A stretch of 64,000 bases of DNA. Origin: Gemmatimonadaceae bacterium. GTDB lineage: Bacteria > Gemmatimonadota > Gemmatimonadetes > Gemmatimonadales > Gemmatimonadaceae. The translations under genes were made by a program, and so were the position numbers. Shown one piece after another: positions 1-13,651 of this stretch (within the stretch, counting starts at the first letter, position 1; each line of letters opens with the position of its first letter). Location: assembly GCA_040882285.1 (NCBI GenBank), contig JBBEBQ010000006.1:1-64000 (forward strand), given 5' to 3'. Under the pieces are notes generated by a model. That model was not told the DNA's origin and did no database searches. It was given only the letters and a program-made list of their open reading frames with translations.

Positions 1-75
1 GAGTGGTTTAAGGCGCACGCCTGGAAAGTGTGTGTACGTGAAAGCGTACCGTGGGTTCGAATCCCACCCCATCCG
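1..75 (+). tRNA. tRNA-Ser(GGA), 5' end cut by the window
   Basis: The D-loop remnant is followed by an anticodon stem CACGC/GTGTG closing a 7-base loop CTGGAAA, so the anticodon is GGA (serine). A long variable arm (TACG...CGTA) marks a class II tRNA. The T-arm is GTGGG TTCGAAT CCCAC and the 3' acceptor strand CCCATCC is followed by discriminator G at 75. CCA is not encoded. About 15 bases of the 5' end lie outside the window. The 3' half is duplicated at 12715 and 13596, which makes this gene the integration target of the adjoining island. Confidence 0.93.
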
Positions 76-76
76 T
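19..76 (+). repeat. Attachment-site core, left copy (inside tRNA-Ser)
   Basis: These 58 bases recur without mismatch at 12715-12772. Bases 21-76 recur at 13596-13651. Identity ends one base past the tRNA discriminator base, which matches a crossover within a tRNA 3' end. The tRNA gene remains intact after integration. Confidence 0.9.
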
Positions 77-89
77 TCGAGAAGGCGTT

Positions 90-130
90 ATCCCGTTTGC
101 GTTTAGAGAACGCAGCGGGATTTCTTCTTT
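90..130 (+). terminator. Rho-independent terminator after tRNA-Ser, supplied by the island
   Basis: ATCCCG (90-95) pairs with CGGGAT (116-121) and TGCGTT (98-103) with AACGCA (109-114), followed by a T-rich run to about 132. Lying just inside the island, it would end the tRNA transcript before it reads antisense into the integrase. Confidence 0.7.
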
Positions 131-147
131 TTGGGACTGAACCGCCC

Positions 148-173
148 AGGTGTCGGTTCGTGGTGTCGGTTGG
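148..173. repeat. Paired AGGTGTCGGTT motif, candidate integrase arm site
   Basis: AGGTGTCGGTTC is followed by a second GTGTCGGTTGG 13 bases on. The same doublet, 12 bases apart, opens the repeats at 9183, 12587 and 13466. Paired short direct repeats beside an attachment core are typical of arm-type recombinase or excisionase binding sites. The binding role is an inference. Confidence 0.5.
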
Positions 174-179
174 TCCGGG

Positions 180-1364
180 CTAGCCCGTAGCGCTCATTTT
201 CCTGCGTGTAGTCAGCGCCTCTCGCTGCAGCTCCAGATCGGGCTGCTGATAGACCAGGAGCACGGTCTGCGGGTTTTTCCAACCTCCCATGTAGGCGAGG
301 TCTCGGAGATTCGTGTCCTTCAACTCAGACGCGAACTTCCGGCGGGCCGAATGGAAGCCCATTCCATGCACATGCTCGATCCCGGCCTTTGCTTCCGCCC
401 GTCTCCACCATTTGTTGGCTGTATGGCATGGCAGCGGCCGTGAGGGGTTCGTATCCGACGGGAATATCCAATGCTCACCGATGGCTCCCTCTGCCTTCTG
501 GAGCCGGTCCAGCGCCTCGGCGGCCCTGTTGGACAAAGGCGTGGTATGCAGAAATCGGATCTTGTCGTTCTCGGCCCGCCACCGGACGACTTTCTTTTCA
601 AGATCGATGTCCGACCAGCGGAGATGCCGCACTGAAGCCGCGCGGTGTCCTGTCTCGTGAACCAGGATAAAAAACGGTTCGCATAGACGGTGAACCTCTC
701 GCGCCACGGAGAGCATTTTTCCGTATTGCTCGTCCGCCAGCATCGGACGGTGCGGGCTGTTGGTCTCGGAAGGGTAGGGCAGTCCCTTCAGAGGGTTATG
801 GGTGAGAAGCGGCACATCCCGGTCATCCCGTGCCGTCGTCGCGAAGTTGAGCACCGCCATCAGATACTTGAGATCGTAGCGGGCCTGCCTCTCGCCCACC
901 GGCTTGACCGGTAGATCCTCCCGGCTGGCCGGACGCAACGCGCCGCTCTGCCTCTCGCGGATGAACTTCTGCCAGTCGCGAACATTGAGCGTGCTCGGGT
1001 GACGTTTAGCTCCGAAGCAGCGGCAGAACATCTCGGCGCACATAGCGTCGTGCGCCTGCTTGCCAGGCGACTTGCCGGGCGTCACTTCCTTCAAGTACCA
1101 GTTGTAAAAAAGCGCATGCAGGGTCAGTGCTGACGCCTGCGGAGCTTCTCCCCTTCGCAGTGCCGCTGCCAGCTCGTCCGCCTTGAGCTTGGCGTGTTGC
1201 CGGTCACTCTTCCCGAGAGAAACCCGTTTGCGTACCGGCTCGGCGTTGGGCTGGCGTTCGTAGAACTCAAGAAAGGATTGGCCTCCCTTCTCGTACGCGC
1301 GCACTCGATTCGTGCCCTTCTCGCCGGACCGGTAGCTCCAGCCTTCCTTCGTTGCGTTATCCAT
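180..1364 (-). CDS. Tyrosine recombinase / phage-type integrase
   Basis: A 394-residue site-specific recombinase that would integrate and excise the island at the tRNA-Ser 3' end. The catalytic domain is complete: Arg241 in the TGHR box, HxxR at 338-341 (FHSARR) and the nucleophile Tyr372 in the VYQQP segment near the C-terminus. An N-terminal arm/core-binding region of about 200 residues precedes it. The ATG at 1364 was chosen because AAAGGGG stands just upstream; the frame is open further 5', but that part overlaps the HTH gene (1357-1794) in another frame. Its 3' end faces the tRNA, 105 bases away. It is the last gene of a leftward three-gene operon and overlaps the preceding gene by 8 bases. 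Confidence 0.92.
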   Translation of the reverse strand: MDNATKEGWSYRSGEKGTNRVRAYEKGGQSFLEFYERQPNAEPVRKRVSLGKSDRQHAKLKADELAAALRRGEAPQASALTLHALFYNWYLKEVTPGKSPGKQAHDAMCAEMFCRCFGAKRHPSTLNVRDWQKFIRERQSGALRPASREDLPVKPVGERQARYDLKYLMAVLNFATTARDDRDVPLLTHNPLKGLPYPSETNSPHRPMLADEQYGKMLSVAREVHRLCEPFFILVHETGHRAASVRHLRWSDIDLEKKVVRWRAENDKIRFLHTTPLSNRAAEALDRLQKAEGAIGEHWIFPSDTNPSRPLPCHTANKWWRRAEAKAGIEHVHGMGFHSARRKFASELKDTNLRDLAYMGGWKNPQTVLLVYQQPDLELQREALTTRRKMSATG

Positions 1365-1794
1365 CGCGTTTCCCCTTTGCGGAGTTGGCGACGGACCGCG
1401 CAATGTCCTGTGCAGATTCAACGATGCGCACTGGCGAGGGGAGCGGCAAGGGACGCTTTCGCCGGTGGAGCAAGTCTCTTCGGCGAACGCGTGGAGCGAT
1501 CTTGCTTCCCGCATTCTCGATCTGACCGGAGCGAACCCAGCGTCCGACCTGCTTTGGGCTGTAGCCCGTTTCCTGGGCAGCTTCGGTGAGCGAGAGCGTT
1601 CGGTCGGGAGACGCCTGGCGAATTTCCCGCAGGCTCGATACAACGGTTCGAACCAACGCTGCGGCGTCAGCGTGGATGCCAAGCTCCGCGCAGGACGCAG
1701 CGAACGTCTGCTCCCACCAATCGAGGGCTGTATCCTCGTCGGAGATCTCGCCGAACGGGAAGGGAATCACCGATTCCCCGCGCTCGTCCAACAC
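1357..1794 (-). CDS. Xis-like helix-turn-helix protein
   Basis: A 145-residue protein directly upstream of the integrase and overlapping its start by 8 bases. Residues ~65-100 (LSLTEAAQETGYSPKQVGRW) read as a MerR/excisionase-type winged helix-turn-helix, followed by a basic stretch (RVRRRDLLHRRKR). The N-terminal ~60 residues are acidic and unrecognised. Position and fold suggest a recombination directionality factor or a regulator of integrase expression. It could instead be a replication-initiation-type HTH protein; nothing in the sequence decides between these. Confidence 0.72.
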   Translation of the reverse strand: MLDERGESVIPFPFGEISDEDTALDWWEQTFAASCAELGIHADAAALVRTVVSSLREIRQASPDRTLSLTEAAQETGYSPKQVGRWVRSGQIENAGSKIAPRVRRRDLLHRRKRPLPLPSPVRIVESAQDIARSVANSAKGKRDG

Positions 1795-1812
1795 TTCGTT
1801 TGCAACGACGCC

Positions 1813-2007
1813 TCAGCTCTCTTTTGTTTCGTCGTCGTCGCTTTCGTCCAAATCGTCGTCGATTAGCTCATCGCCGGGTTCTTCGTCGCTGGCCTGGTAC
1901 TTATCGACCATGCCAGCCAGCCGCTCGTTTTTTTCCCATAGGCGGGCGTTCTCTTGCCACAGCTTGTCGTTTTCTTCCTCAAGCTGCGCGATTCCCTTGC
2001 GTGCCAC
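1813..2007 (-). CDS. Small coiled-coil protein with acidic tail
   Basis: 64 residues starting at GTG 2007, preceded by AGGAGG at 5-base spacing, one of the best ribosome-binding sites in the island. Residues 8-40 are heptad-like (QLEEENDKLWQENARLWEKN), predicting a coiled coil, and the last ~20 residues are almost all Asp/Glu. It lies 18 bases upstream of the HTH gene and is first in the integrase operon. I do not recognise a family. An acidic tail on a coiled coil could be a DNA-mimic or a partner of the recombinase, but that is speculation. Confidence 0.65.
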   Translation of the reverse strand: MARKGIAQLEEENDKLWQENARLWEKNERLAGMVDKYQASDEEPGDELIDDDLDESDDDETKES

Positions 2008-2012
2008 CTCAA

Positions 2013-2079
2013 CCTCCTCGAAAAAAGTTTGGATTGTCCGACTTCCGAACTCCTAAGAGGAGGATCGTTTCGTAGTCAA
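2013..2079 (-). promoter_or_regulatory. Leader of the integrase operon with possible SD sequestration
   Basis: On the minus strand a TTGACT box (2074-2079) stands 17 bases from a weak TTAGGA (2051-2056). Just inside the leader, CCTCCTC (plus-strand GAGGAGG, 2057-2063) is exactly complementary to the GAGGAGG that forms the Shine-Dalgarno of the first gene (plus-strand 2013-2019). A local alternative hairpin CTCCT-AAG-AGGAG (2050-2062) would release it. The -10 is poor, so the promoter is tentative. Confidence 0.35.
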
Positions 2080-2143
2080 GGGCGGGGGTATTCAGCCCAT
2101 GCGCGTCCAGCGAAACCACAAATACACGTCAATGGTGAAAAGT

Positions 2144-2223
2144 CGTGTTGGAGACGTGTAGACGAAGTTTCGGGACGTGAAAAGGCGTGTAATCGGCGTG
2201 CAGGCGAAGGTGTCGAAACGTGT
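2144..2223 (+). repeat. Helically phased CGTGT direct repeats
   Basis: CGTGT-like pentamers start at 2144, 2155, 2176 (CGTGA), 2186, 2197 (CGTGC), 2209 (GGTGT) and 2219. Spacings are 11, 21, 10, 11, 12 and 10, that is about one or two DNA turns. The array lies in the ~500-base divergent gap between the integrase operon and the restriction genes (2008-2508), which otherwise holds no gene. Such phasing suits cooperative protein binding on one DNA face. Confidence 0.6.
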
Positions 2224-2443
2224 AAAATGCGGTACTGGTTGTGAAAACATGAGCAATAATTAGGTGAAAATACTTTGGGCGTTGGCATCGATTGGTGCGC
2301 TGCCACCCGATATCAATTGGCTGATGTCGTGTGCGTTGCTCGTCGGAGACGAGTCGGCGTGGCGACGGTGACGGGTGTCGTCTACGTCAGCCGATCAGCT
2401 CACGAAAGCGGGGCCACTTGGCCAGCGGAAGGTTGGCCATGTC

Positions 2444-2482
2444 ACAGTCGGATTTGGACTATGCCAAATCCGACTGTACGAT
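2444..2482 (+). promoter_or_regulatory. Palindromic operator overlapping the controller promoter
   Basis: ACAGTCGGATTTGG (2444-2457) and its exact complement CCAAATCCGACTGT (2464-2477) are separated by six bases. TTGGAC (2454-2459) and TACGAT (2477-2482), 17 bases apart, could be the -35 and -10 boxes, placing the dyad over the promoter. The site ends 31 bases before the XRE gene, as expected for autoregulation by a restriction-modification controller protein. There is no clear Shine-Dalgarno before ATG 2509. Confidence 0.55.
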
Positions 2483-2508
2483 CCCGCGCGGTGCTTATCC
2501 ACTCATAA

Positions 2509-2766
2509 ATGCGAAAGTCTCTTTTCTCCAAAGAGTACAGCGCGTTCTTAAATCATCTCAAAAGAGCGCGGGTGCGCGCAGGCATCACGCAGCAGGAACT
2601 CGCAGTGCGCCTCTCCACGACACAATCCTTCGTCAGCAAGTGTGAGCGAGGTGAGCGCCGCCTTGACATTATCGAGCTTCGAGCTTGGTGCGGTGCTCTT
2701 GAGGTTTCCCTACCAGCGTTCGTAACTCAGCTTGATCGGGCGCTCGTCAAGGTTCCAGTCCGATGA
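2509..2766 (+). CDS. XRE-family controller (C) protein of the restriction system
   Basis: 85 residues made of a single Cro/C1-type helix-turn-helix (core ITQQELAVRLSTTQSFVSKC, residues ~26-45). Size and fold match C proteins that time expression of restriction endonucleases. Its stop overlaps the start of the nuclease gene (ATGA at 2763-2766), so the two are translationally coupled in the classical C-R order. A perfect 14-bp inverted repeat upstream is its likely operator. An alternative reading is an ordinary antitoxin-like regulator, but the neighbouring nuclease and methylase favour the C-protein role. Confidence 0.8.
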   Translation: MRKSLFSKEYSAFLNHLKRARVRAGITQQELAVRLSTTQSFVSKCERGERRLDIIELRAWCGALEVSLPAFVTQLDRALVKVPVR

Positions 2767-3851
2767 TCCAGCAGATTTTCGAACGGTTTGCGACGGCGGA
2801 CCGATTCAACCTACGTCAGCTCCATCAAGAAATTTGGCCCATATTCGAGGCCGACCCCGTCGTGAGCGAACCCCTGAGACTGCTTAGGGAGCGGTTGGGA
2901 GACAAACACTACCGAAGTCTCGGAAACGCCTTGTTGCGCCACGTCTTCTTAATTGAGTTGGTGAAGGTGCCTGCGATCGAAACCACGAAGTACCGCGTGC
3001 GATGGTTTGAGCAGCTAACTGGCGATCCGCGCTGGTGCTCCTTCGACGAATGCTTGGACATAGCGCGGGACCTCACAACCCATCTGAGTGACGGCTGGCT
3101 GGACGACCCGGACCACGAGCAGGCGCTCAAACTGTGTTTTGAACACTGCCTGTTACCGTATGAGGTTCCGCTTGATTACGCGACACGTCCGGAGCCCAAT
3201 GATTCCAGTACAAGGATTCATCGGCGTCAGAATCTCGTCTGGATATCTACCGAGACGATGTTGCGGACACTCAGGCTTCGCCAGTTCTTGACGGACTCGG
3301 CTTCTAGCCCGGACGCTGAGTTCTTTGCGAAAGTTCTTGACCGGAAGGTAGTGGTTAAGACGTACCTCACAGATCGCGCACTAACCGGCGAGTTCAAGAC
3401 GAATCGAGAGAAGCGATGGGAAACGCACCCTCGGTCGGTGCAGTTCGCCGACAGGCGAACGTGCATAGCCATCGAGCACACTCTTATTACGCAGCTTTGC
3501 GCGTTCGAAGGATTCCCAAAGGAATCGAGAGACATTCTACAGGCAAAAGGTTTTCTTCCTCAACCGCTTGAGACCTTTCGCTGTCCAATCACGCTCGATG
3601 CCCTTTCCTTTCTAGCTTTTCACGAAGCACTTGAGAATCCCTCGCATGGGAGATCAGAGTTTCAGGTAGCACATCTCAACCCGCTAAAACTTGACGCGCC
3701 GGCAAGTCTCACAGGATCGGGACATACCGCCGGAAATATCAGCTGGATCTCGGCGGATGGAAATCGCATTCAAGGCAGCATGGGCATAACGGAGATTCGA
3801 GCACTCCTACGGCGCATTGCAAGCAATTACGAAGCGAGGGGCTGGGTCTGA
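2763..3851 (+). CDS. Putative restriction endonuclease, HNH-like (HNN) fold
   Basis: 362 residues. The last ~90 hold a His-Me-finger-like pattern: CPITLD at ~274, VAHLNP with His304, then GNISWI with Asn325 and ADGNRIQG with Asn334, giving an H-N-N arrangement. The N-terminal ~260 residues are unrecognised and probably bind DNA. It is co-translated with the controller protein and convergent with the methylase, overlapping that gene by 25 bases at the 3' end. I infer that it cuts unmodified DNA at the site protected by the methylase. Family membership rests on the motif alone, so nuclease activity is likely but the exact type is open. Confidence 0.65.
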   Translation: MIQQIFERFATADRFNLRQLHQEIWPIFEADPVVSEPLRLLRERLGDKHYRSLGNALLRHVFLIELVKVPAIETTKYRVRWFEQLTGDPRWCSFDECLDIARDLTTHLSDGWLDDPDHEQALKLCFEHCLLPYEVPLDYATRPEPNDSSTRIHRRQNLVWISTETMLRTLRLRQFLTDSASSPDAEFFAKVLDRKVVVKTYLTDRALTGEFKTNREKRWETHPRSVQFADRRTCIAIEHTLITQLCAFEGFPKESRDILQAKGFLPQPLETFRCPITLDALSFLAFHEALENPSHGRSEFQVAHLNPLKLDAPASLTGSGHTAGNISWISADGNRIQGSMGITEIRALLRRIASNYEARGWV

Positions 3852-5851
3852 AGTAAGTTCGAAATTTCCGTAACCGCCTGCTTCGCTTGTTTCATGAGTG
3901 CTCTTGCTTCAATCCTCTTTTGAACCGCTTGCCTTACGGCTGCGTCAATTCGCTCGCGAGCGTCGGACGCCCTGGGTATCGGTAGAACTAGCTCGCGAAT
4001 TCGCTCCCCGAGGCTGTCGATGATGTCCTGGGTGAACTGCTTGGACCGAATTTGTCGCTGCACAATTGGTGAGCTTAGTACAGCGATGAGCAGGAAGGGA
4101 GTTAGGCCGAGCTGGTTGGCCTGAACGCGGATCTTATAGATGTGACTCTGGTAGACGATTTCGCGGTCCTCTTCTGTCACAACCGCGCAGGTACCGATAA
4201 GGTAGGTGCCATCTTTTACCATAAGAATGTCTAACGGTCGTACGTCCTGCTTCTTGCGGAAGGACTCGTAGATCTTTCGATCGACACTGTGCTTCGCGTC
4301 AGCCTTTATCTCCCAATTACTTATGTCCGATGTTCGGACGAAGGGGATATCACCAGTTCCGTAAGCAAGTTTCCCCAGTTCGTCGCCGGTGGCCACTGCA
4401 AACGTGCCGGAGCTAACAAGGTCACCGAAGAGTAAGAGGTCATGCGTGGCCTTTAGCGCGTTGAGGTCCGCATCAACTTGTGGGTCGTAGTATCGAGGGC
4501 ATAGAACGTTGTTTGAGATCTCTGATTTGCCGATAAGAAAGCCTCGACTAGACGGTTTGAGTGTGTTGCCTGTGCGGGCTGCCTTCAAGTTGCCCGCGAT
4601 TGCGGGTAGGTCATTCTTCGGGATTGTGCGGGCACGGGAGTCATGGCCACACCATTTCGCCTCGGCCATAAATACCGAGTTTCCACGCTGTCTGCCGCCG
4701 CCGTTCTTCACCGCAACGAGCAGGCAAGTTTTTGTGTGAGTGCCGCCCTTACCTGACGTCTTAAAGAGGGCTTCGGGCATGCCCATCACCGCCTGCACAT
4801 CCGCCTTAGCCAACAGGTATTCAGTTACATAGCGGTATGATTTGTTTGAGAGCACGCTCTCGGGGAGCACCATTCCGAGCCGTCCACCTGGCTTGAGCAG
4901 CGACAAACAACGCTCCACGAACAAGACTTGGGGAGGAACTTGCGCCTGCATCTCACTCGTTGGGCCCCAAGTATCAGATGCTTTGTCATAGCGCCACTTA
5001 CGCGCGAGCTCAAAAGTGCGCAGCACCTCAGGCTTCGCAGCGACGATTCGCGTCCCGAATGGTGGATTTGTCAGGAGAACATCAAACCCCTCCTTCGGAA
5101 AGTGTTCACCAAACGCTCTCGATCCATCTTGAAGCGCGATGCTATCGGCACATGCGATGTGGGGGTGCCCGCCACTAAGCAGTGAGACATGAAGCCTCGC
5201 GAGCTTAACTAGATACTCATCTTTATCGATGCCGAAGAAGTCTCGCGAAACGAGCGATGACAAATTCTTCGCATCGGTGCCCCTTGCGACGTAGTGCCGA
5301 GCCACTGAGGTCAGGAAGCCGCCCGCACCGCAGGCCGGATCAATCACTAATTCGCCCGGCTTTGGGTCTACAGCCTCGACTAGCAGGTCGGTTACCACGC
5401 GGGGAGTAAAAAACTGTCCTGCCCTCCCACGTGACTCGCTGCCTACAAATACCTCGAACGCATCTCCAATGGGATCGCTTTCGGCATCAATGAGCGAAAA
5501 TGCGCACTCGGCGAGAACAAAGCGGATCGCTTCCGGATCGAGAAGAATCTCGGTATCAGGTTCGAAAAGATCAGGAAAGTCCCCACGCACCCGCGCGAAT
5601 ACACTCCGGAGATGCCTAGCGCGTTCGAACGAGTCCGCCCCTGCCGAAATCTCTTCAGCCGCTCCCACCTCGACATACAGCTTGCAGAAGAGGCACTTTA
5701 GAACTTCCTCAAGGAGCGCGTCGTCGCGCGTTGCGCCGACGAATTGACCGGCCAAGTAGTTGCGAATGTTGCGAAACGCTTCCTTGGGGCTGCTCAGCCC
5801 TGGCAGGATAAGGCTATCCGTGTTCGAACGTTGAGTTAAGGCTCGCGCCAT
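3827..5851 (-). CDS. N6-adenine DNA methyltransferase with fused specificity domain (HsdM-HsdS-like)
   Basis: A 674-residue type I-like methylase. Residues ~130-420 are the N6_Mtase domain: GQFFTP at ~145-150, SAM motif I DPACGAGGF (171-179) and catalytic motif IV NPPF (262-265). From ~450 to the end there is a target-recognition region resembling an HsdS half (IPFVRTSDISNWEIK, then a C-terminal helix rich in Arg, Glu and Ala). Fusing M and S makes a free-standing modification enzyme. It has no nuclease domain of its own, so the convergent HNN protein is the probable cutter. The start at 5851 follows AGGGGCCCAAGG. A TATCC/GGATA array lies upstream. Confidence 0.88.
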   Translation of the reverse strand: MARALTQRSNTDSLILPGLSSPKEAFRNIRNYLAGQFVGATRDDALLEEVLKCLFCKLYVEVGAAEEISAGADSFERARHLRSVFARVRGDFPDLFEPDTEILLDPEAIRFVLAECAFSLIDAESDPIGDAFEVFVGSESRGRAGQFFTPRVVTDLLVEAVDPKPGELVIDPACGAGGFLTSVARHYVARGTDAKNLSSLVSRDFFGIDKDEYLVKLARLHVSLLSGGHPHIACADSIALQDGSRAFGEHFPKEGFDVLLTNPPFGTRIVAAKPEVLRTFELARKWRYDKASDTWGPTSEMQAQVPPQVLFVERCLSLLKPGGRLGMVLPESVLSNKSYRYVTEYLLAKADVQAVMGMPEALFKTSGKGGTHTKTCLLVAVKNGGGRQRGNSVFMAEAKWCGHDSRARTIPKNDLPAIAGNLKAARTGNTLKPSSRGFLIGKSEISNNVLCPRYYDPQVDADLNALKATHDLLLFGDLVSSGTFAVATGDELGKLAYGTGDIPFVRTSDISNWEIKADAKHSVDRKIYESFRKKQDVRPLDILMVKDGTYLIGTCAVVTEEDREIVYQSHIYKIRVQANQLGLTPFLLIAVLSSPIVQRQIRSKQFTQDIIDSLGERIRELVLPIPRASDARERIDAAVRQAVQKRIEARALMKQAKQAVTEISNLLQTQPLAS

Positions 5852-5887
5852 CCTTGGGCCCCTGTGAGAGTGGCTCTAACACTCCAA

Positions 5888-5949
5888 ACATATCCTGTAG
5901 TCTAGGATGGGGCGAGACATATCCTGCTTCGCCCCCCAGTCTGGATATA
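5888..5949. promoter_or_regulatory. TATCC/GGATA dyad array upstream of the methylase
   Basis: ACATATCCTG occurs twice (5888-5897 and 5917-5926), each followed by an inverted partner: AGGAT at 5904-5908 and GGATA at 5943-5947. The array lies 37-98 bases upstream of the methylase start, inside its leader or promoter. It looks like a multi-site operator, plausibly for the controller or the methylase itself. Confidence 0.4.
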
Positions 5950-5990
5950 ATTACGGCTTGGGGGAAGGTACCCTTAGTCGGTCATAACGC

Positions 5991-6022
5991 GTTACCAAAG
6001 GGCACCTGCGGTAACCTTTTTT
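5991..6022 (+). terminator. Weak hairpin with T-run
   Basis: GTTACC (5991-5996) pairs with GGTAAC (6010-6015), and six Ts follow. No rightward gene ends here, so it may insulate the downstream genes from readthrough or be fortuitous. Confidence 0.35.
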
Positions 6023-6102
6023 CAGCGCGATCGATCAGTTCGCGGGCCGGATGAGGAGAACAAAGCTGTAAGTCGAAGGCAACCAACCGGAGAGGCATGA
6101 CA

Positions 6103-6324
6103 ATGGCAAAGCACGACGTGTCCTTCAGTATCCCACAACGCGCACTTGGTAAAGCCGATGTCAAATTTCAGGTAAAGCGCGATGGCTCAGTGCACGGTAC
6201 TCTTGAGGTTTCGAACGGCTCACTTGTGTGGTTTCCCAAGGGCACGACCTATGGACTGAAAATGAGTTGGGTGAAGTTTGACAGAATCATGCAGGACAAC
6301 GCGACCAGATTAGAAAGGCGGTGA
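6103..6324 (+). CDS. Small conserved-looking protein of the defence block
   Basis: 73 residues starting at ATG 6103; GGAGAGG stands 7 bases upstream, whereas the in-frame ATG at 6097 would be too close to it. The sequence MAKHDVSFSIPQRALGKADV followed by alternating strands (VHGTLEVSNGSLVWFP) suggests a compact beta-rich fold ending in a basic helix. I recall similar small proteins in many genomes without an assigned function. It is divergent from the methylase and precedes the Z1 gene in the same direction with its own 240-base gap. A DNA-binding or complex-subunit role is possible but unproven. Confidence 0.65.
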   Translation: MAKHDVSFSIPQRALGKADVKFQVKRDGSVHGTLEVSNGSLVWFPKGTTYGLKMSWVKFDRIMQDNATRLERR

Positions 6325-6488
6325 TCGAATGCCGGTGTCTGCATCCTTTCGCGAACTCCCGAGCACTCTCACTTCCGATCGCGGGTCCGCTGAAATACTT
6401 CTATCCCTTTTGCACTTATTCAGAGGGCGGCGGAATTTCTCTTCTCCGTGAACCCTGGGGCGGCTGAGTAAGCGTTCTGTGAATACCG

Positions 6489-6517
6489 TTGACAGTGGTT
6501 GTGCACAGCGCTAACAT
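6489..6517 (+). promoter_or_regulatory. Sigma-70-type promoter of the Z1 gene
   Basis: TTGACA (6489-6494) and TAACAT (6512-6517) are separated by exactly 17 bases, predicting transcription from about 6524. The Z1 start is at 6565, with AGGGA upstream. This sits in the 6325-6564 gap, which shows no other gene. Confidence 0.65.
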
Positions 6518-6564
6518 TCTCCTGAGCATATTATTCACACTCGCACGGGAGTCAGGGAAACGGT

Positions 6565-8955
6565 ATGGGCGAAACCCTTCTGGGAGTCTATGAGATTGCC
6601 GAGACCGCGAATGTCAGCCCTTCCGCCGTTGGCAATTGGCGAAAAAGGTTCCCCGACTTTCCGAGTCCACTGGCCGAACTGAAGTCGGGACCTGTCTTTT
6701 CGGAAAGTGCCGTGAAGTTGTGGCTAGCTAAACGTCAGTCGAGTGATGCAGCGCCACCGATCGACCTTTACTACGATCAATTGGCAAGCAGGCGGGGAGA
6801 TCCACCCGAACTCCGAGAGAAAGTCGAGGAGGTGGTTGAGAAGCTTCAAGGTCAAGCCACGTCTACGAAGCGTCCGGGGATCCTCTTGGGTGGTGTGCAG
6901 AGCGGAAAAACCAGGGCATTTTTGGGAGTGATCGCTCGCGCTTTCGATCGGGGTTACGACATCGCCGTGATCCTCACGAAAGGCACCAAGTCCCTGGCCG
7001 AGCAGACTATTAGCCGCGCGAAGGACGACTTTCGAGAATTCATTGCTGCGGATGAGGTTGAAATATTCGACATCCTATCCGTGCCCGAACTCACTCCTTA
7101 CGAGCTAACACACAAGCTCATTTTCGTAGTGAAGAAGGAGGACGACAATCTGCGCCGCTTATTGAGCCTCTTTGAGCAAACCTATCCCGCATTGCGAACC
7201 AAGACGGTTTTGATCATCGACGATGAGGCTGATCTAGCGTCGGTGAGTTTTCGTAAGACGAATGGTGTGAGTGGGGCCGGTGTCATCTCTCAGCAGATAG
7301 ATCAGCTTCGGGGACTAGTGGCGAACGCCGCGTTTTTGCAGGTCACTGCTACACCCTATGCGCTATACCTTCAGCCTGAGGACGAAGTTGTTCTGAGTGG
7401 GGGGTCGCTTTTTCGGCCAAAGCGCCCCGCGTTTACCGTTCTGTTGCCGACACACGCGAAATATGTCGGAGGGTACGAATACTTCGAGAAGAGCACAGAT
7501 AGCGATTCCCCGGGTTTCTTTTTTTACCGCGAAGTACCTTTGCCAGAACGTGATGCCCTAAAAAAAGAAGATCGTCGGCGGTTGCAAATCGACAAGGTTC
7601 TGACCGAGAAAAATGCGGGAATTCTCCGAGACGCCGTAGTTGCTTTCTTAGTGGGTGGTGCGATTCGCAGGCTGCAACAGAGGTCTGCGGGACAGCGGCC
7701 TCAGAAATACAGTTTCCTTTTTCACACTGAGCAATCGCGCGGATCCCATGAATGGCAAGAAAAGGTCGCTCGGGCGATAAGAGACTCCCTCGTCGAACAA
7801 GCTCGGGCGGACAGTCCTCTATTCAATGAACTCCTTCGCTCAGCGTATATGGATCTTCGTAGGTCGATCGAACTAGAGGGCGCAGTACCAAGCCTCGATG
7901 ACGTTAAAAAGTCCGTGGTTGAATCGCTGCACAGCGGGCAACTTATGATCACGAAGGTGAACTCAGACCAAGACATTAAGCAGCTATTGGCGGAAGATGG
8001 GCAGCTCAAGTTGCGCACTCCATTTAACATGTTTATTGGGGGTCAGATTCTTGATCGGGGCATAACGATTAGCAATTTGATCGCATTCTATTATGGTCGG
8101 AATCCAAATCGGTTCCAGCAGGATACCGTTCTCCAGCATTCCCGAATGTATGGCGCGCGTCCGAGCGGCGATCTTGCTGTTACTCGGTTCTATGCACCAC
8201 TGCATGTGTATCAAATCATGAAGCGGATTCATGAATTCGATGCGGCTCTTAGGGAAGCTTTCCAGTCCGGGGCGCACGACGGAGGAGTCTATTTTATTCA
8301 GAAGGACAGCTCCAAGCGGTTGGTTCCGTGCTCTCCCAATAAGCTGTTGTTCTCTGATGTGGTAAGCATCCGACCCGGCCGGCGTCTAGTACTTTCCGGT
8401 TTCCAGACTGTTCACCGGACCTATGGCGGAAAAAATTTGGCGGCCTTGGATAGGCGCATCGAGAAAATAGCTGGCTTGCGAATCGAGCCAATCCTAGTCA
8501 GTCTGCCGGAAGCCGTTGAGCTCTTGAAAATGGCATACTCGAATCTTGAATTCGACGATTCGAATGACGACGACCGGGAGGCGCATATCGCTGCTCTCGA
8601 GCACTTGTCTCGCACGACAAAGAATGCGTCTTTGAAGGGGAAAGTCTGGCTTTTGGTTGCGCGCGATCGAAATGTGTCTCGATATCGTGAAGAGGGCCGG
8701 TTCTCAAATGCGCCCGACACAAAACAACAGAAGGATCTCGCCCGGTTGAAGGCAGAGGATATTCCGGTCCTTATGCTTCTGCGTCAGAGTGGAGAGGAGG
8801 CGCAAGGCTGGCGAGGGCTCGCTTTCTGGTGGCCTGTAGTTATGACGCCGCGTTCGGGAGTCACTGCAATTTTCGCGACCGCACGAGCGGTTACGCCTAC
8901 GGCGGCGACCAGCACTGGACCGATACGATCACTTCCAACAGAGCGGGATGGCTAG
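6565..8955 (+). CDS. Z1-domain ATPase/helicase-like protein with N-terminal HTH
   Basis: 796 residues. Residues 5-55 form a MerR-like helix-turn-helix (YEIAETANVSPSAVGNWRKR). Residues ~105 to 650 are a Z1-type P-loop NTPase: Walker A GGVQSGKT (109-116), Walker B IIDDEAD (217-223), motif III-like TATPY (261-265), and later GGQILDRGIT and a QHSRMYGAR arginine-finger-like box. The C-terminus ends with the aromatic FWWPVV block typical of the family. Z1 proteins are known (Iyer, Abhiman and Aravind) from restriction-modification islands with methylases and nucleases, where they are proposed to translocate DNA. No GHKL/MORC ATPase partner is present here. It probably powers or licenses restriction by the neighbouring enzymes. 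Confidence 0.85.
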   Translation: MGETLLGVYEIAETANVSPSAVGNWRKRFPDFPSPLAELKSGPVFSESAVKLWLAKRQSSDAAPPIDLYYDQLASRRGDPPELREKVEEVVEKLQGQATSTKRPGILLGGVQSGKTRAFLGVIARAFDRGYDIAVILTKGTKSLAEQTISRAKDDFREFIAADEVEIFDILSVPELTPYELTHKLIFVVKKEDDNLRRLLSLFEQTYPALRTKTVLIIDDEADLASVSFRKTNGVSGAGVISQQIDQLRGLVANAAFLQVTATPYALYLQPEDEVVLSGGSLFRPKRPAFTVLLPTHAKYVGGYEYFEKSTDSDSPGFFFYREVPLPERDALKKEDRRRLQIDKVLTEKNAGILRDAVVAFLVGGAIRRLQQRSAGQRPQKYSFLFHTEQSRGSHEWQEKVARAIRDSLVEQARADSPLFNELLRSAYMDLRRSIELEGAVPSLDDVKKSVVESLHSGQLMITKVNSDQDIKQLLAEDGQLKLRTPFNMFIGGQILDRGITISNLIAFYYGRNPNRFQQDTVLQHSRMYGARPSGDLAVTRFYAPLHVYQIMKRIHEFDAALREAFQSGAHDGGVYFIQKDSSKRLVPCSPNKLLFSDVVSIRPGRRLVLSGFQTVHRTYGGKNLAALDRRIEKIAGLRIEPILVSLPEAVELLKMAYSNLEFDDSNDDDREAHIAALEHLSRTTKNASLKGKVWLLVARDRNVSRYREEGRFSNAPDTKQQKDLARLKAEDIPVLMLLRQSGEEAQGWRGLAFWWPVVMTPRSGVTAIFATARAVTPTAATSTGPIRSLPTERDG

Positions 8956-9182
8956 CAATGGAAGGGGAGTGGTCCAGCGCAGCCGGAGTGAGTTGTGAGC
9001 TTGAGATTGCGTCTTGAAACATCCCACATGATGGCTAGCGCGCACCCGTGGGTTCCTGCGCGGGGCAAGGACCGGCCTCCGAAGGCCCGCGCTCGCTTTG
9101 CCAGGAAACTATTCCCTGCTCCGCCGGCCATTGGGCTCGCGGTCGCATACTTTCTTTCCGGTTTCGTGGAGCGGTTTAGCTG
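8956..9182. other. Non-coding gap after the Z1 gene
   Basis: No convincing gene. Short open frames here lack ribosome-binding sites and recognisable protein features. The stretch ends at the partial att-type repeat starting at 9183. Confidence 0.5.
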
Positions 9183-9269
9183 AGGTGTTGGTTCAGGTGT
9201 TGGTTAGACCTGGACATGCCCGGAAATCGGGGCAGGGGTGCACAGGACATTTCGCGGTCCGCCAAAGGT
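9183..9269 (+). repeat. Partial relic of the 186-bp att-arm repeat
   Basis: This block aligns without gaps to the first 87 bases of the repeats at 12587 and 13466, including the paired AGGTGTTGGTT doublet and the well-conserved segment ending CATTTCGCGGTCCGCC. The tRNA-derived part is missing. It marks an older junction between the Z1 block and the rmuC/DUF2779 block. Confidence 0.75.
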
Positions 9270-9287
9270 CTTGAGCGAACGGCGGCA

Positions 9288-9327
9288 GTAGCTTAACTCA
9301 CCGTCCACGGAACCCGGCACAGCTCAA
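9288..9327 (+). repeat. 40-bp direct repeat, copy upstream of rmuC
   Basis: Begins GTAGCTTA and ends ACAGCTCAA. It matches 10723-10762 at about 32 of 40 positions without gaps, so the two copies bracket rmuC. Confidence 0.55.
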
Positions 9328-9399
9328 GTGCAATTTCGCTCCGGGCAACCAGAATATCCCATCGGGTACCTGAATGTCTAGTCTCGGAGGCCGCGACGT

Positions 9400-10635
9400 A
9401 TGACACAGACCTGGCTGATCGCGATGGCTGGCCTCTTGGCTGCCGTCCTCGTGCTGCAGATCGTGCTACTGAGAACTCGCGCCGATCCTACCGAGCTCGT
9501 CCGCACCGCTCTTCGAAATGAATTGAGTACCCTCCGTCAGGAAACCGTCAGCGGCGGAGTGCAGCTCCGGACCGAGATCGGCCAGAAGCTGGATGGAATG
9601 TCCAGTATCACGCTTGGCGCACTCGACCGATCGCGAGAGACGCTCGCGCAGAGTGTCAAAGAGATGCAGGAGGGGAACGAAAAAAAGCTCGAACTCATGC
9701 GACAGACGGTTGACGAGAAGCTTCAGGGAACGCTGGACCGGCGACTCGGCGAATCGTTCACGCTCGTACAACAGCAGCTCGAGTCCGTTCAGAAAGGACT
9801 AGGCGAGATGCAGCAGCTGGCTACGGGTGTGGGCGATCTCAAGAAGGTGCTATCGAACGTCAAGACACGGGGGATATTCGGGGAGGTGCAGCTTCGGGCG
9901 ATCCTGGAGGAGATTCTGACACCGGATCAGTTCTGTGCCAATTATGCGCCGTCTCAGGATTCGCGGGATCACGTGGAATTTGCGGTGGCGCTCCCGGGCC
10001 CCGGGGGCATCGCAGGCCCGGTGTTCCTGCCGATCGACTCCAAGTTTCCCCAGGAGGACTACCTTCGCCTGCTCGACGCAAGCGACCGTGCCGACATCGC
10101 GGGCGTTGCTGAGGCGCGCGAGGCGATGTACCGGCAGGTGAAGAGCTATGCTAAGACCGTATGCGACAAGTACATCGTCCAGCCGCAAACAACCCCATTC
10201 GCGATCGTCTTCCTTCCCACCGAGAGCCTCTATGCCGAGGTCCTCCGCCAGCCAGGCCTTGTTGAGGAGCTTCAGCGTAAGTACTCGATCGCGCTTACTG
10301 GTCCGACCACACTTGGTGCATTCTTGACCAGTCTTCGGATGGGTTTTCACACCATCGCGATCGAAAAGCGCGCGAGCGAAGTGTGGAACGTTCTCGGGGC
10401 AGTGAAGACAGAGTTCTTGAAGTTTGGCGAAGTCCTGGACAAGGTGCACCGGCAGCTCGACTCGGCTCAGAAGTCGATCGGGGCTGCTGGCGTGCGGAAG
10501 CGAGCCATGGAGTGGAAGCTGCGAGACGTTCAGTCGCTCTCGGTACCCGACGCAAACAGGTTGCTCGAGTCGAACGCGGCGATCGACGAGGCAGACCCCG
10601 ACCGGGTTACTGAGGACGCGGACGCGGATGACTGA
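9400..10635 (+). CDS. rmuC: RmuC-family DNA recombination protein
   Basis: 411 residues. One N-terminal membrane anchor (WLIAMAGLLAAVLVLQIVLL) is followed by a coiled coil (~40-150) and the RmuC domain (~150-370), with the typical FGEVQLRAILEEIL, LPIDSKFP and FLPTESLYAEVLR segments. RmuC proteins are predicted nuclease-fold proteins that limit DNA inversions and recombination. The C-terminus is acidic. Although often chromosomal, this copy lies within the island between two 40-bp repeats and beside another nuclease gene, so a defence or genome-maintenance role within the element is plausible. No obvious operon partner shares its strand. Confidence 0.88.
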   Translation: MTQTWLIAMAGLLAAVLVLQIVLLRTRADPTELVRTALRNELSTLRQETVSGGVQLRTEIGQKLDGMSSITLGALDRSRETLAQSVKEMQEGNEKKLELMRQTVDEKLQGTLDRRLGESFTLVQQQLESVQKGLGEMQQLATGVGDLKKVLSNVKTRGIFGEVQLRAILEEILTPDQFCANYAPSQDSRDHVEFAVALPGPGGIAGPVFLPIDSKFPQEDYLRLLDASDRADIAGVAEAREAMYRQVKSYAKTVCDKYIVQPQTTPFAIVFLPTESLYAEVLRQPGLVEELQRKYSIALTGPTTLGAFLTSLRMGFHTIAIEKRASEVWNVLGAVKTEFLKFGEVLDKVHRQLDSAQKSIGAAGVRKRAMEWKLRDVQSLSVPDANRLLESNAAIDEADPDRVTEDADADD

Positions 10636-10722
10636 GGGCCGTCGCACACACAGGTCCGGGGTCATTCGAGCTGTGCGCGGGTTGGTGGACTCCTCAACGA
10701 GGTTTAGCGAGAACCGGTGCGG

Positions 10723-10762
10723 GTAGCTTAGGCCAGCGTCCCGGGAACCGGGTACAGCTCAA
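10723..10762 (+). repeat. 40-bp direct repeat, copy downstream of rmuC
   Basis: Partner of 9288-9327. It lies in the 176-base gap between rmuC and the convergent DUF2779 gene; nothing else is seen in that gap. Confidence 0.55.
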
Positions 10763-10811
10763 TCGGCTCGACGTGCTCGACCGGCGCTATCATCGATGCC
10801 GAGCGAGAACT

Positions 10812-12275
10812 CTAGCCCGCACCGGTCTTAATGCTGGAGGCCACCTCGTGGAGCCGAACCAATGCCATCGTATCCAGGCTGCAGTACATTAGCAACGCGC
10901 GTCGGTGCCGTTCGTGTGTGTCGGCGGGATACTCGCCGACTCGCATCAACCCAAACACACCCGCAGCGTCATCTCCATTGTTGACCGCCAAGGTATCGTA
11001 ACGGAGGTCTGGCACCATCACGGGTAGGACCTTCTTGATTGATGTTCTTCCTCCAAAGCCTGGGTGCCAGTATCCATTCTTGAAGACTTGCTCGAGGTCA
11101 AAAAGGCGCGACACGACGAGGCCTATCGCTTCGCGAAGATCGGGAAAGAGAGTTGTGAGCGCCGTGAGTCGCGTCTTCTCATATGAGGAGTAGACCACGA
11201 TCGAACCGGTACTTCCAAGGTCGGCAAGGAGCTGCTCCGTGAACGCTCGTCTCCAGTCGCCATCGACTGTGGCGAGATACTCGTGGTGTTCAAGCGTGGC
11301 GCCAGGCGCGCTCCGTATGTGCAGGGAATACTGAAAGGGAACGGCGTCGTACGGCGGCCTCCCTTCGAACCACGGCAGATGGGGCATGACTGCTTCGAAG
11401 TCGAGGTAGTACGCTGGCCAGGCAACGTCCTCGAGGATCTGGAGTCCAGCTCGTTCCGTGCGGGGCTGCCCAGAGCGAACGATCTCCGCGACTCGCTGCT
11501 GCGGTTCGGTCAGCTTCGCGGTCGAGGGGAGGTTGGTGACTCGCTCGTAAACGCGTAGCTCCACGAACTTCTTCTCGCTCAAACGAGGCAGAACGAAGAG
11601 AGGGTCTGCCACGCCCTTCCCGATGCAGACCGTGTCGAAGAACTCGCAGCCCTTGCATGCGAACTTGAGACTCGGCTCCGGTCGCTGGTCACCAGTAACG
11701 GCCGTCGCGATCGCCTGCGCGTCCTGGCTGAAAGCGGTCGCTCGCCGGAGCGCCTCGGCAGTTACGTCGAGTTCTACGAATAGATCGGCCTCGCCTCCGA
11801 GCGTGTAGTCTCGGTTCAGGAGGACGAGCGAGGCGCGCACAACCGCCAAGCCGGCCCTCGACGCGACACAAGTCGTGTACGCGAGATCGTCGAGGTACTC
11901 TTCCTTCACTCTGCCGTCTTGGGAGGACTGCCCTGATTTTATTTCGACGAGGGTCCAGCCATCATCTGAGTGGCGAAGGGCATCAGCGCGCGCGACCAGC
12001 CCTCCCCACTGGAACGAAGCTTCGAAGAGCAGATTGGACTCGGGGTTTTTCACCGCATCGTCAGTGGCCTGTAGCGCAGAATCGAATGGAGCGCGTTGCA
12101 ATGAACGCCCTTCGCCCAGCCAAGCTCGCGCCCGGTGCGCCACGTCTGCTCCCGCGTAAAAGCGCCACCGGAGCCCAGGAGCAGGAACCTCTCCGGGCGC
12201 GTGATGAATATACCAGCCCTGAGTCAGACAACGCCGGGCGGCGAGGAATGCGCGTTTGTCGACAGGTTCACTCAC
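10812..12275 (-). CDS. Cas4-like nuclease fused to DEDD-type exonuclease domain (DUF2779)
   Basis: 487 residues from GTG 12275, chosen because GGAGG lies 4-5 bases upstream and the conserved start (KRAFLAARRC) follows at once. The N-terminal half is a PD-(D/E)xK fold: Asp98 in RADAL, then Glu111-x-Lys113 in VEIKSG. Cys16 with Cys207, Cys210 and Cys217 (CKGCEFFDTVC) could hold an iron-sulfur cluster, as in Cas4/AddB. The C-terminal half is DUF2779, with an RNase H-like YLDFEAV (~291-297) and a terminal YCSLDTMALV box. The protein probably processes DNA ends. It is convergent with rmuC. It might belong to the island's defence cargo. Confidence 0.82.
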   Translation of the reverse strand: MSEPVDKRAFLAARRCLTQGWYIHHAPGEVPAPGLRWRFYAGADVAHRARAWLGEGRSLQRAPFDSALQATDDAVKNPESNLLFEASFQWGGLVARADALRHSDDGWTLVEIKSGQSSQDGRVKEEYLDDLAYTTCVASRAGLAVVRASLVLLNRDYTLGGEADLFVELDVTAEALRRATAFSQDAQAIATAVTGDQRPEPSLKFACKGCEFFDTVCIGKGVADPLFVLPRLSEKKFVELRVYERVTNLPSTAKLTEPQQRVAEIVRSGQPRTERAGLQILEDVAWPAYYLDFEAVMPHLPWFEGRPPYDAVPFQYSLHIRSAPGATLEHHEYLATVDGDWRRAFTEQLLADLGSTGSIVVYSSYEKTRLTALTTLFPDLREAIGLVVSRLFDLEQVFKNGYWHPGFGGRTSIKKVLPVMVPDLRYDTLAVNNGDDAAGVFGLMRVGEYPADTHERHRRALLMYCSLDTMALVRLHEVASSIKTGAG

Positions 12276-12586
12276 AGCGCCTCCGATATGTCCCAATCTG
12301 ATTTCGGATCCAACATCAGGAGCCAACGCACTCTACTCTAATGCCCGTCCGCGTATTCTGGGACAACGTCATCGCACGCTGGCCTGAATCGGAGGAAACG
12401 TCATCGAGCATGTTCGATTTCCTGTTCGGCAGCAAGCAGTCCACTTCGCCTCCGGCGCGAGGGCAACCGAGGCGAGCCTCTCTTAACCCCTCCTCGTTCT
12501 CACCCGAGTGCGGTCGCAGCGGTTATCGCTGGTGTCCTGTTTCGCCTTCGCCCGCGAAAAATCACTCGCTCGCTCGGCTTGGCTGT
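12276..12586. other. Non-coding gap left of the first 186-bp repeat
   Basis: No gene supported. Open frames that cross it run on into the att repeat and the opposite strand of the toxin gene, so they are fortuitous. Confidence 0.5.
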
Positions 12587-12772
12587 AGGTGTCGATTCAG
12601 GTGTCGGTTGGATGCGGACATGACCGGACATCGGGGCAGGGGTGCACAGGACATTTCGCGGTCCGCCATAGGTAAATGCGGACTTGAGGTCCTAATCCCT
12701 GCCTATACTTTCCGGCCTGGAAAGTGTGTGTACGTGAAAGCGTACCGTGGGTTCGAATCCCACCCCATCCGT
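12587..12772 (+). repeat. 186-bp direct repeat B: arm site plus tRNA-Ser att core (inner attR)
   Basis: Starts with the AGGTGTCGATTC/AGGTGTCGGTTGG doublet, continues with a conserved ~75-base arm and ends with the tRNA-Ser 3' sequence (12715-12772). It aligns gap-free with 13466-13651, with about 15 mismatches counted by eye. Without the toxin cassette this copy would be the right end of the island. Confidence 0.88.
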
Positions 12773-12798
12773 CGGCGATTTCGCTCTTCAGCGGCCCG

Positions 12799-13119
12799 TC
12801 AGACGCCAACGAGAGTTGCTTCACCCTTTGGCGCGCTGACAATGGCCTGAAGTAGTTCCGGAATGAGACCTTCAAGATCCCGGAGCCGATTGCTGGGGGC
12901 GCGCAGGACCACGACCGCGATACCGCGTCCACCGAGGTTTTGCTGATAGCGAAGGCTCTGGTCCAGCGTGACGAACACATCGTATTCGCCGACTGCGGCG
13001 TCCAACAGAGCGCCGTTCGACAGGTCGGACCAACGTCTTTGGTGGATCGTCGCAACTTCGTGGCCGATGATCTGGTGGGCTAGCGCCCGTGGCAAATTGC
13101 CATCCAGTAGCACGCGCAT
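12799..13119 (-). CDS. DUF5615 PIN-like toxin
   Basis: 106 residues resembling the DUF5615 (Mut7-C/PIN-like) family: N-terminal MRVLLDGNLPRALA, a central DVFVTLDQSL strand with acidic residues, and a hydrophobic VVVLRAPSN strand. Members are presumed RNases paired with DUF433 antitoxins, which is exactly the gene found 21 bases upstream on the same strand. It is second in the operon and its 3' end lies 27 bases from repeat B. The domain length is near the family norm, so it looks intact. Confidence 0.82.
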   Translation of the reverse strand: MRVLLDGNLPRALAHQIIGHEVATIHQRRWSDLSNGALLDAAVGEYDVFVTLDQSLRYQQNLGGRGIAVVVLRAPSNRLRDLEGLIPELLQAIVSAPKGEATLVGV

Positions 13120-13140
13120 CGGTTCGCTGAGCGGGTCCGC

Positions 13141-13371
13141 TTATGCTGCTGTCGCCGAAGCCGTTAGTGCGTCCTTTGCAAGCTCCAGTACGGCGATGGC
13201 GTGCTCACGTGAAACGCTCGGAAATTGATCTAGAAATACATCGAGCGAATCACCACCTTCGAGGTAATCAATGAGGCCCTGAACTGGCACTCGCGTTCCC
13301 GCGAACACCGGCGTTCCCCCCAGGCGGTCGGGCGAACTCGTGATCAGGGGATTGGGCAAAGACGGCATCAT
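13141..13371 (-). CDS. DUF433 antitoxin
   Basis: 76 residues with the DUF433 signature: LGGTPVFAGTRVPVQGLIDY, then a helix and SREHAIAVLELAK. The family has a winged-helix-like DNA-binding fold and accompanies DUF5615 PIN-like toxins. It neutralises the toxin and probably represses the pair. First in a two-gene leftward operon contained entirely between the two 186-bp repeats, so it may stabilise the island or the cassette. Confidence 0.85.
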   Translation of the reverse strand: MMPSLPNPLITSSPDRLGGTPVFAGTRVPVQGLIDYLEGGDSLDVFLDQFPSVSREHAIAVLELAKDALTASATAA

Positions 13372-13465
13372 GAATACCCTCCAAAGTAATGGTCTAATCT
13401 ACACCTAGAGGCTTGGCCTGAGCTAACGTTGCGAGTTCTACCTGCAAGCACAGCCTGCTGAGAGC

Positions 13466-13651
13466 AGGTGTCGGTTCAGGTGTCGGTTGGCTGCGGACAT
13501 CACAGGACATCAGGGCAGGGGTGCACAGGACATTTCGCGGTCCGTCAGAGGTAAATGCGGACATCACGTCCCAATCCCTGCCAATATCTTCCGGTCTGGA
13601 AAGTGTGTGTACGTGAAAGCGTACCGTGGGTTCGAATCCCACCCCATCCGT
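13466..13651 (+). repeat. 186-bp direct repeat C: arm site plus tRNA-Ser att core (outer attR)
   Basis: Same length and layout as 12587-12772, offset by 879 bases. The tRNA-identical core is 13596-13651. Chromosomal sequence resumes directly after it, with the tRNA terminator. Confidence 0.88.

Follow-up and report, generated by a model that had tools for sequence, protein, structure and literature searches.

Gene content of the locus

The window, by which we mean the whole 64,000-nucleotide stretch analysed here (Gemmatimonadaceae bacterium, GenBank assembly GCA_040882285.1, contig JBBEBQ010000006.1, positions 1 to 64,000 of the forward strand), carries near its left end five genes encoding a controller (C) protein, a DraIII-like nuclease, a fused methylase-specificity (M-S) protein, a small protein and a Z1 ATPase with a helix-turn-helix (HTH) of its own, preceded by an inverted repeat:

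2444-2477, no strand: perfect 14-bp inverted repeat with a 6-bp spacer, lying 31 bp ahead of the C gene
2509-2766, + strand: C protein, Xre/HTH_3, 85 amino acids (aa); HTH_3 E 1.4e-10, PADLOC Control_protein E 1e-5
2763-3851, + strand: DraIII-like HNH nuclease (H304-N325-N334), 362 aa, with a ~190-aa N-terminal extension and without zinc ligands
3827-5851, - strand: HsdM-HsdS-like fused N6-adenine methyltransferase (M-S) with one target-recognition domain, 674 aa; N6_Mtase E 2e-31
6097-6324, + strand: protein of an independent, sparse family, 75 aa from the ATG at 6097
6565-8955, + strand: HTH-DEAD-Z1-C ATPase (HTH-Z1) of the N.NgoAVII/H.CglI family, 796 aa; HTH spanning roughly residues 4-59, PF10593 E 6.8e-21

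A reading made from the letters alone (the sequence-only reading) had proposed that these genes make up an undescribed five-gene subtype of restriction-modification (R-M) system containing Z1. Its gene calls hold: the five open reading frames are all present where it placed them, and it correctly identified the C protein, the H-N-N motif of the nuclease, the M-S fusion and the N-terminal HTH of Z1. The small protein is likewise present, although the 73 residues given for it count only from the second Met. The C gene precedes the nuclease gene, its stop codon overlapping the nuclease start (ATGA at 2763-2766), and both are read rightward; M-S is read leftward, convergent with the nuclease gene, whose end it overlaps by 25 bp, and divergent from the small gene and Z1, which are read rightward. 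The five genes are therefore not one operon.

A DraIII-like R-M unit

Residues 269-308 of the window nuclease match the Pfam DraIII family at a sub-threshold level (E 0.0028), and a joint profile of eight nucleases matches the DraIII structure 4l0k with E 2.6e-24. In the alignment, H304 and N334 of the window nuclease fall on H183 and N202 of DraIII, alanine mutants of which are inactive (PMC3996161), and both residues are invariant in 8 homologues. Across divergent relatives the invariant set extends to K199, T208, G209, N214, R215, R218, W219, H304, N325 and N334. The nuclease is thus predicted to contain a DraIII-family HNH domain, an assignment reached via intermediates only (the shorter members in loci L116-L120 and the sub-threshold Pfam match). 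DraIII has two structural zinc sites; its zinc ligands C157/C160/H198/C201 have no counterparts in the window protein, which we therefore name DraIII-like rather than DraIII. As these ligands are essential in DraIII, their loss would fit decaying cargo with an inactive nuclease. We consider such decay very improbable: every open reading frame is full-length, the ten invariant residues include all three of the H-N-N motif, and the loss of the C-terminal zinc ligands is common to whole lineages (L112, L113, L116-L119 and L025), the ligands being kept in the nuclease of the Phaeobacter locus L120.

Searches of plasmids and viral contigs recovered the nuclease and M-S together in nine other loci, comprising Acinetobacter plasmids (L025, L026), phage-like contigs (L112/L029, L113/L030, L116-L119) and a Phaeobacter plasmid (L120), and Z1 in none of them. 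The two genes converge as they do in the window, except on the Acinetobacter plasmids, where C, nuclease and M-S are co-directional. The Phaeobacter nuclease is a genuine Pfam DraIII (E 9.2e-77). On four viral contigs (L116-L119), M-S and an H-N-N nuclease of ~226-243 aa lie among phage structural genes; two of these nucleases were tested and gave no Pfam match, and that of L117 runs off the contig. Scans of viral contigs with single window proteins gave no match for the nuclease and none for Z1. The nuclease was found in the window only within a 298-genome sample of the phylum, and was not found in 16 whole genomes with Z1 relatives or in 378 genomes of the Massilia phylum, although an empty answer proves little where a positive control is lacking.

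The C-terminal half of M-S resembles type I specificity subunits (PADLOC Specificity_I, 2.2e-12; MAD5 S-subunit, 5.9e-14). Identity to the window M-S is 47-63% in the loci with the long nuclease, recognition domain included, and 33% in Phaeobacter. Because the recognition-domain sequence is strongly conserved among the window, Acinetobacter, L112 and L113, these M-S proteins are predicted to share a target site. A type I R-M assignment for the HsdM-like protein was set aside; no HsdR motor-nuclease was found among the island proteins scanned.

The window C protein matches its C-like counterpart in the Phaeobacter DraIII-type locus (E 6e-5), and a C-like HTH gene lies upstream of the nuclease gene in L025, L026 and L120. 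The inverted repeat at 2444-2477 is a candidate C-protein operator; no comparable repeat was found upstream of the C and nuclease genes in the other loci. Taken together, C, nuclease and M-S look like a self-sufficient type II R-M unit related to DraIII. M-S, with its single half-specificity domain, most likely dimerises, and the dimer would methylate adenine within a gapped palindromic site. The nuclease, as a DraIII-like homodimer whose subunits each carry one H-N-N active site, would cut the same site when unmethylated, and the C protein may delay nuclease expression after the unit reaches a new host.

HTH-Z1, a motor with changing partners

The motifs of the window Z1 are intact in sequence (Walker A GGVQSGKT, DDEAD, TATP and HSRMYG), and almost the whole protein aligns with PADLOC Helicase_II (E 1.6e-63), while residues 69-774 match the gonococcal Z1 protein at ~26%. 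The window Z1 is the sole Z1 in the genome and would act as a superfamily 2 motor capable of ATP-driven translocation. Upstream of its gene lies a promoter-like site at 6489-6517, of a kind whose matches in the region are at chance level.

A scan for Z1 across 84,980 species, each represented by a single genome, yielded 105 relatives, of which 80 were kept, and the tree was built from 82 sequences. None of the 80 has the nuclease or the small protein nearby, and three have only distant type I-like methylase matches. The HTH-bearing proteins form two clades. A Z1 with its own HTH is not special to this locus: members of the second, alphaproteobacterial clade lie with C5-methylase systems in 5 of 6 loci. 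Within the window clade (63-78% identity), partners include Mod/Res (type III-like) in L032 and SmaI with an N4 methylase in L034, whereas L033, L035, L036, L037 and L092 have no clustered methylase. Counting methylases from four clusters within 7 kb, 42/80 Z1 loci have one (26/51 among fully flanked loci). We accordingly regard HTH-Z1 as a shuffled, R-M-associated motor found beside different R-M systems or none.

These neighbourhoods bear on the role of Z1 itself. It may be an orphan defence gene, acting alone or with an unlinked partner and functionally unrelated to the adjacent R-M unit, a proposal compatible with a separable R-M unit and, in our estimate, evenly balanced between true and false. 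In its favour, a clustered methylase is missing near five of the seven closest relatives, and two of these (L033 and L092) are flanked by about 10 kb on both sides, although L033 has an Mrr-like nuclease gene ~1.3 kb off. Against it, the other three end near the Z1 gene on one side, at contig edges, the remaining two of the seven (L032, L034) sit beside R-M genes, and the second HTH-Z1 clade keeps its C5-methylase company. Moreover, strong ATPase activity of the characterized N.NgoAVII and H.CglI motors depends on an R-protein, and cleavage in turn requires the motors (PMC4267653, PMC5737866).

The HTH of the window Z1 is also found in HTH-ParA-like ATPases at 43-54% identity (L086 1760-5378; L007, L008, L010). 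In Citrifermentans a C5-methylase/GIY-YIG/Vsr cluster contains a Z1 that lacks the HTH, and upstream of this Z1 lie an HTH-ParA-like gene and a gene for a 131-aa protein. This is the only locus in which a ParA-like gene adjoins Z1, and a Z1/HTH-ParA link was not built upon.

The integrative island at tRNA-Ser(GGA)

The five genes share one island with flanking integrase, RmuC and DUF2779 genes. Its boundaries are marked by the following features:

1-76, + strand: 3' portion of a tRNA-Ser gene whose 5' end is lost at the contig start (5'-truncated Rfam tRNA match, 32.1 bits)
19-76: attL side of the island, core 58-nt repeat
180-1682, - strand: tyrosine-type (phage) integrase of the island; PF00589 E 4.3e-20
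1357-1794, - strand: HTH protein whose gene overlaps the 5' end of the integrase gene, possible excisionase or regulator; HTH_17 E 1.4e-4, under the Pfam cut-off
9183-9269, + strand: sub-terminal repeat with tandem GGTGTTGGTT, apparent remnant right end of the first cargo module
12587-12772, + strand: island right end, with sub-terminal repeat at 12587-12673 and attR core at 12715-12772

The 58-bp repeat from the 3' end of tRNA-Ser recurs at 12715-12772 (identical to 19-76) and at 13594-13651 (98%), and the integrase gene adjoins its first copy. Tandem GGTGTYGRTT/GGTGTYGGTT sites lie exactly at 149, 9184, 12588 and 13467, and shuffled sequence contained none. G+C content is 0.54 in the R-M/Z1 part, 0.60 in the RmuC-DUF2779 part and 0.68 in the window beyond the island. 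Window 1-13651 accordingly has the build of a composite integrative island at tRNA-Ser(GGA), with an integrase, three 58-bp attachment (att) repeats and four tandem arm-like sites. The four arm-like sites suggest one left and three right ends, that is, three accreted cargo modules, and the repeat at 9183 suggests that integrase, R-M genes, small gene and Z1 were formerly one module.

A related genome holds a complete homologue of the tRNA-Ser(GGA) gene (L151 5330-5417). There, in a related genus, a tRNA-Ser(GGA) island (L151 5330-11820, G010 contig 12) has the same ends (86% right, 83% left) and a different cargo of ABC transporter-type genes plus an integrase fragment. The second module of the window island (9400-12326) carries RmuC (PF02646) and a protein that combines PD-(D/E)XK with DUF2779; three other genomes of the genus yielded no RmuC. 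An anti-phage system with an RmuC domain, Shield, is known (PMC10270631). The third module (12799-13371), which lies between att repeats two and three, pairs DUF5615 (PIN-like) with DUF433 and is likely a toxin-antitoxin.

Probable co-residence rather than one five-gene system

Five-gene co-occurrence is seen in 0/80 Z1 loci and 0/9 nuclease/M-S loci, and neither Z1 nor the small protein accompanies this nuclease and M-S in any of these other loci, a result that the sequence-only reading had itself named as contrary to its proposal. The genes are real, but the R-M unit and Z1 travel separately in the comparison loci, and the candidate five-gene system is thereby removed. The small protein fits better as a separate, sparsely distributed family, and its distribution does not support membership in the R-M unit. 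It occurs in 8/298 genomes of the phylum, window included, and also on Gordonia plasmids; the viral-contig scan gave one weak partial match. One homologue lies near a different Z1 gene (G238, L130) and another immediately follows an hsdM stop codon, a GmrSD-type gene lying further on (L136 6968-9168, G139 contig 22), while no such Z1 or hsdM neighbours were recognised for the remaining copies in the stretches read. Its predicted model comprises four strands and a helix (predicted local distance difference test, pLDDT, 68.6), and had no significant match in the PDB.

Integrase, 58-bp attachment repeats and low G+C content (0.54 vs 0.68) together support the status of these genes as island cargo. 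Co-residence of the R-M unit and HTH-Z1 in one island is the simplest reading. We judge it probable, taking the parts jointly, that the R-M and Z1 genes arrived by horizontal transfer as cargo of an integrative island at tRNA-Ser(GGA), and that this cargo comprises two functionally separable things, a DraIII-type R-M unit and a separate HTH-Z1 ATPase.

Several points weigh against this. A number of comparison loci stop only a short way past the genes in question, such that a more distant Z1 could be missed. The DraIII link passes through the intermediates described above; the four long-form nucleases alone, used as a profile, find no DraIII in the PDB. The predicted nuclease structure is poor (mean pLDDT 56.7), the fold is unconfirmed, and the model was kept out of the fold search. 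The zinc-ligand loss could also have altered nuclease activity. Finally, M-S is the genome's only strong N6_Mtase match and no C5 methylase (PF00145) was found in the genome, which is 96.6% complete (control positive in 10/14), leaving room for Z1 to use this R-M unit.

That last point favours a coupled arrangement, the idea of the sequence-only reading, in which Z1 would be recruited to the R-M unit: nuclease and M-S would give specificity, and HTH-Z1 would dock on them or on DNA and translocate, giving ATP-assisted restriction. The frequent R-M company of Z1 relatives, the dependence of cleavage on the H.CglI and N.NgoAVII motors, each with its own R-protein, and the location of both R-M and Z1 inside one module, bounded by the left end and the end repeat at 9183, also favour such coupling. 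However, nuclease and M-S occur in nine other loci without Z1, no Z1 relative has the nuclease or this M-S nearby, the 16 Z1-bearing genomes yielded no nuclease, and Z1 lies on the strand opposite M-S with another gene between. DraIII, as a type IIP enzyme, also works without an ATPase. Coupling is on balance unlikely. A broader version, in which HTH-Z1 is recruited by whichever R-M system shares its island, so that a normally ATP-free DraIII-like unit gains an ATP-driven motor and the HTH-Z1 lineage serves type II and III systems promiscuously as a plug-in motor, is a speculation that we hold to be quite unlikely.

Comparison with known systems

The closest architectural counterpart of the window Z1 is in the CglI and NgoAVII systems of Corynebacterium and Neisseria, whose H.CglI and N.NgoAVII have the same DEAD-Z1-C arrangement, whereas the window protein differs by its extra N-terminal HTH. 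Neither a PLD nor a B3 domain, as expected of a PLD-B3 R-protein, was seen among the neighbouring proteins, to which this search was confined. The absence of GHKL/MORC ATPases and PD-(D/E)xK nucleases, offered earlier as a distinguishing mark, does not serve as one, since CglI and NgoAVII already pair Z1 with a PLD-type nuclease (PMC4267653). Iyer et al. (2008, PMC2292703), in the study that gave the Z1 domain its name, described MORC/GHKL-containing R-M operons with superfamily II helicases, but a GHKL ATPase was not recognised in the window cluster. MzaC of the MZA system (MzaABCDE) also has a Z1 domain (match E 2.1e-18), although the window Z1 scores 65.7 bits against an MzaC equivalog cut-off of 1500 and no other MZA gene was recognised among the neighbouring proteins scanned. 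The window M-S resembles the MAD2 methylase (E 3.9e-71) and MAD5 specificity subunit (E 5.9e-14) of the methylation-associated defence system (MADS), yet it falls far under the cut-offs (240 vs 720; 51.7 vs 400) and other MAD genes were not recognised.

For the R-M unit the counterpart is DraIII of Deinococcus radiophilus (4l0k, CACNNNGTG), a type IIP HNH nuclease with matching catalytic His and Asn. The Phaeobacter Pfam-DraIII nuclease has the same kind of M-S fusion and C-like protein as partners. DraIII has 227 aa, whereas the window nuclease has 362, with the N-terminal extension and without the C-terminal zinc ligands. The likeness is drawn from the nuclease and, for M-S, from the comparison with the Phaeobacter M-S. 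The R-M unit is a DraIII-like variant and HTH-Z1 a variant of a known motor family. The former belongs to a zinc-less, N-terminally extended branch that travels with M-S fusions and is missed at threshold by Pfam and NCBIfam; the latter belongs to an HTH-fused branch of the CglI/NgoAVII motors that changes partners by locus, which makes a role of Z1 without a dedicated nuclease testable.

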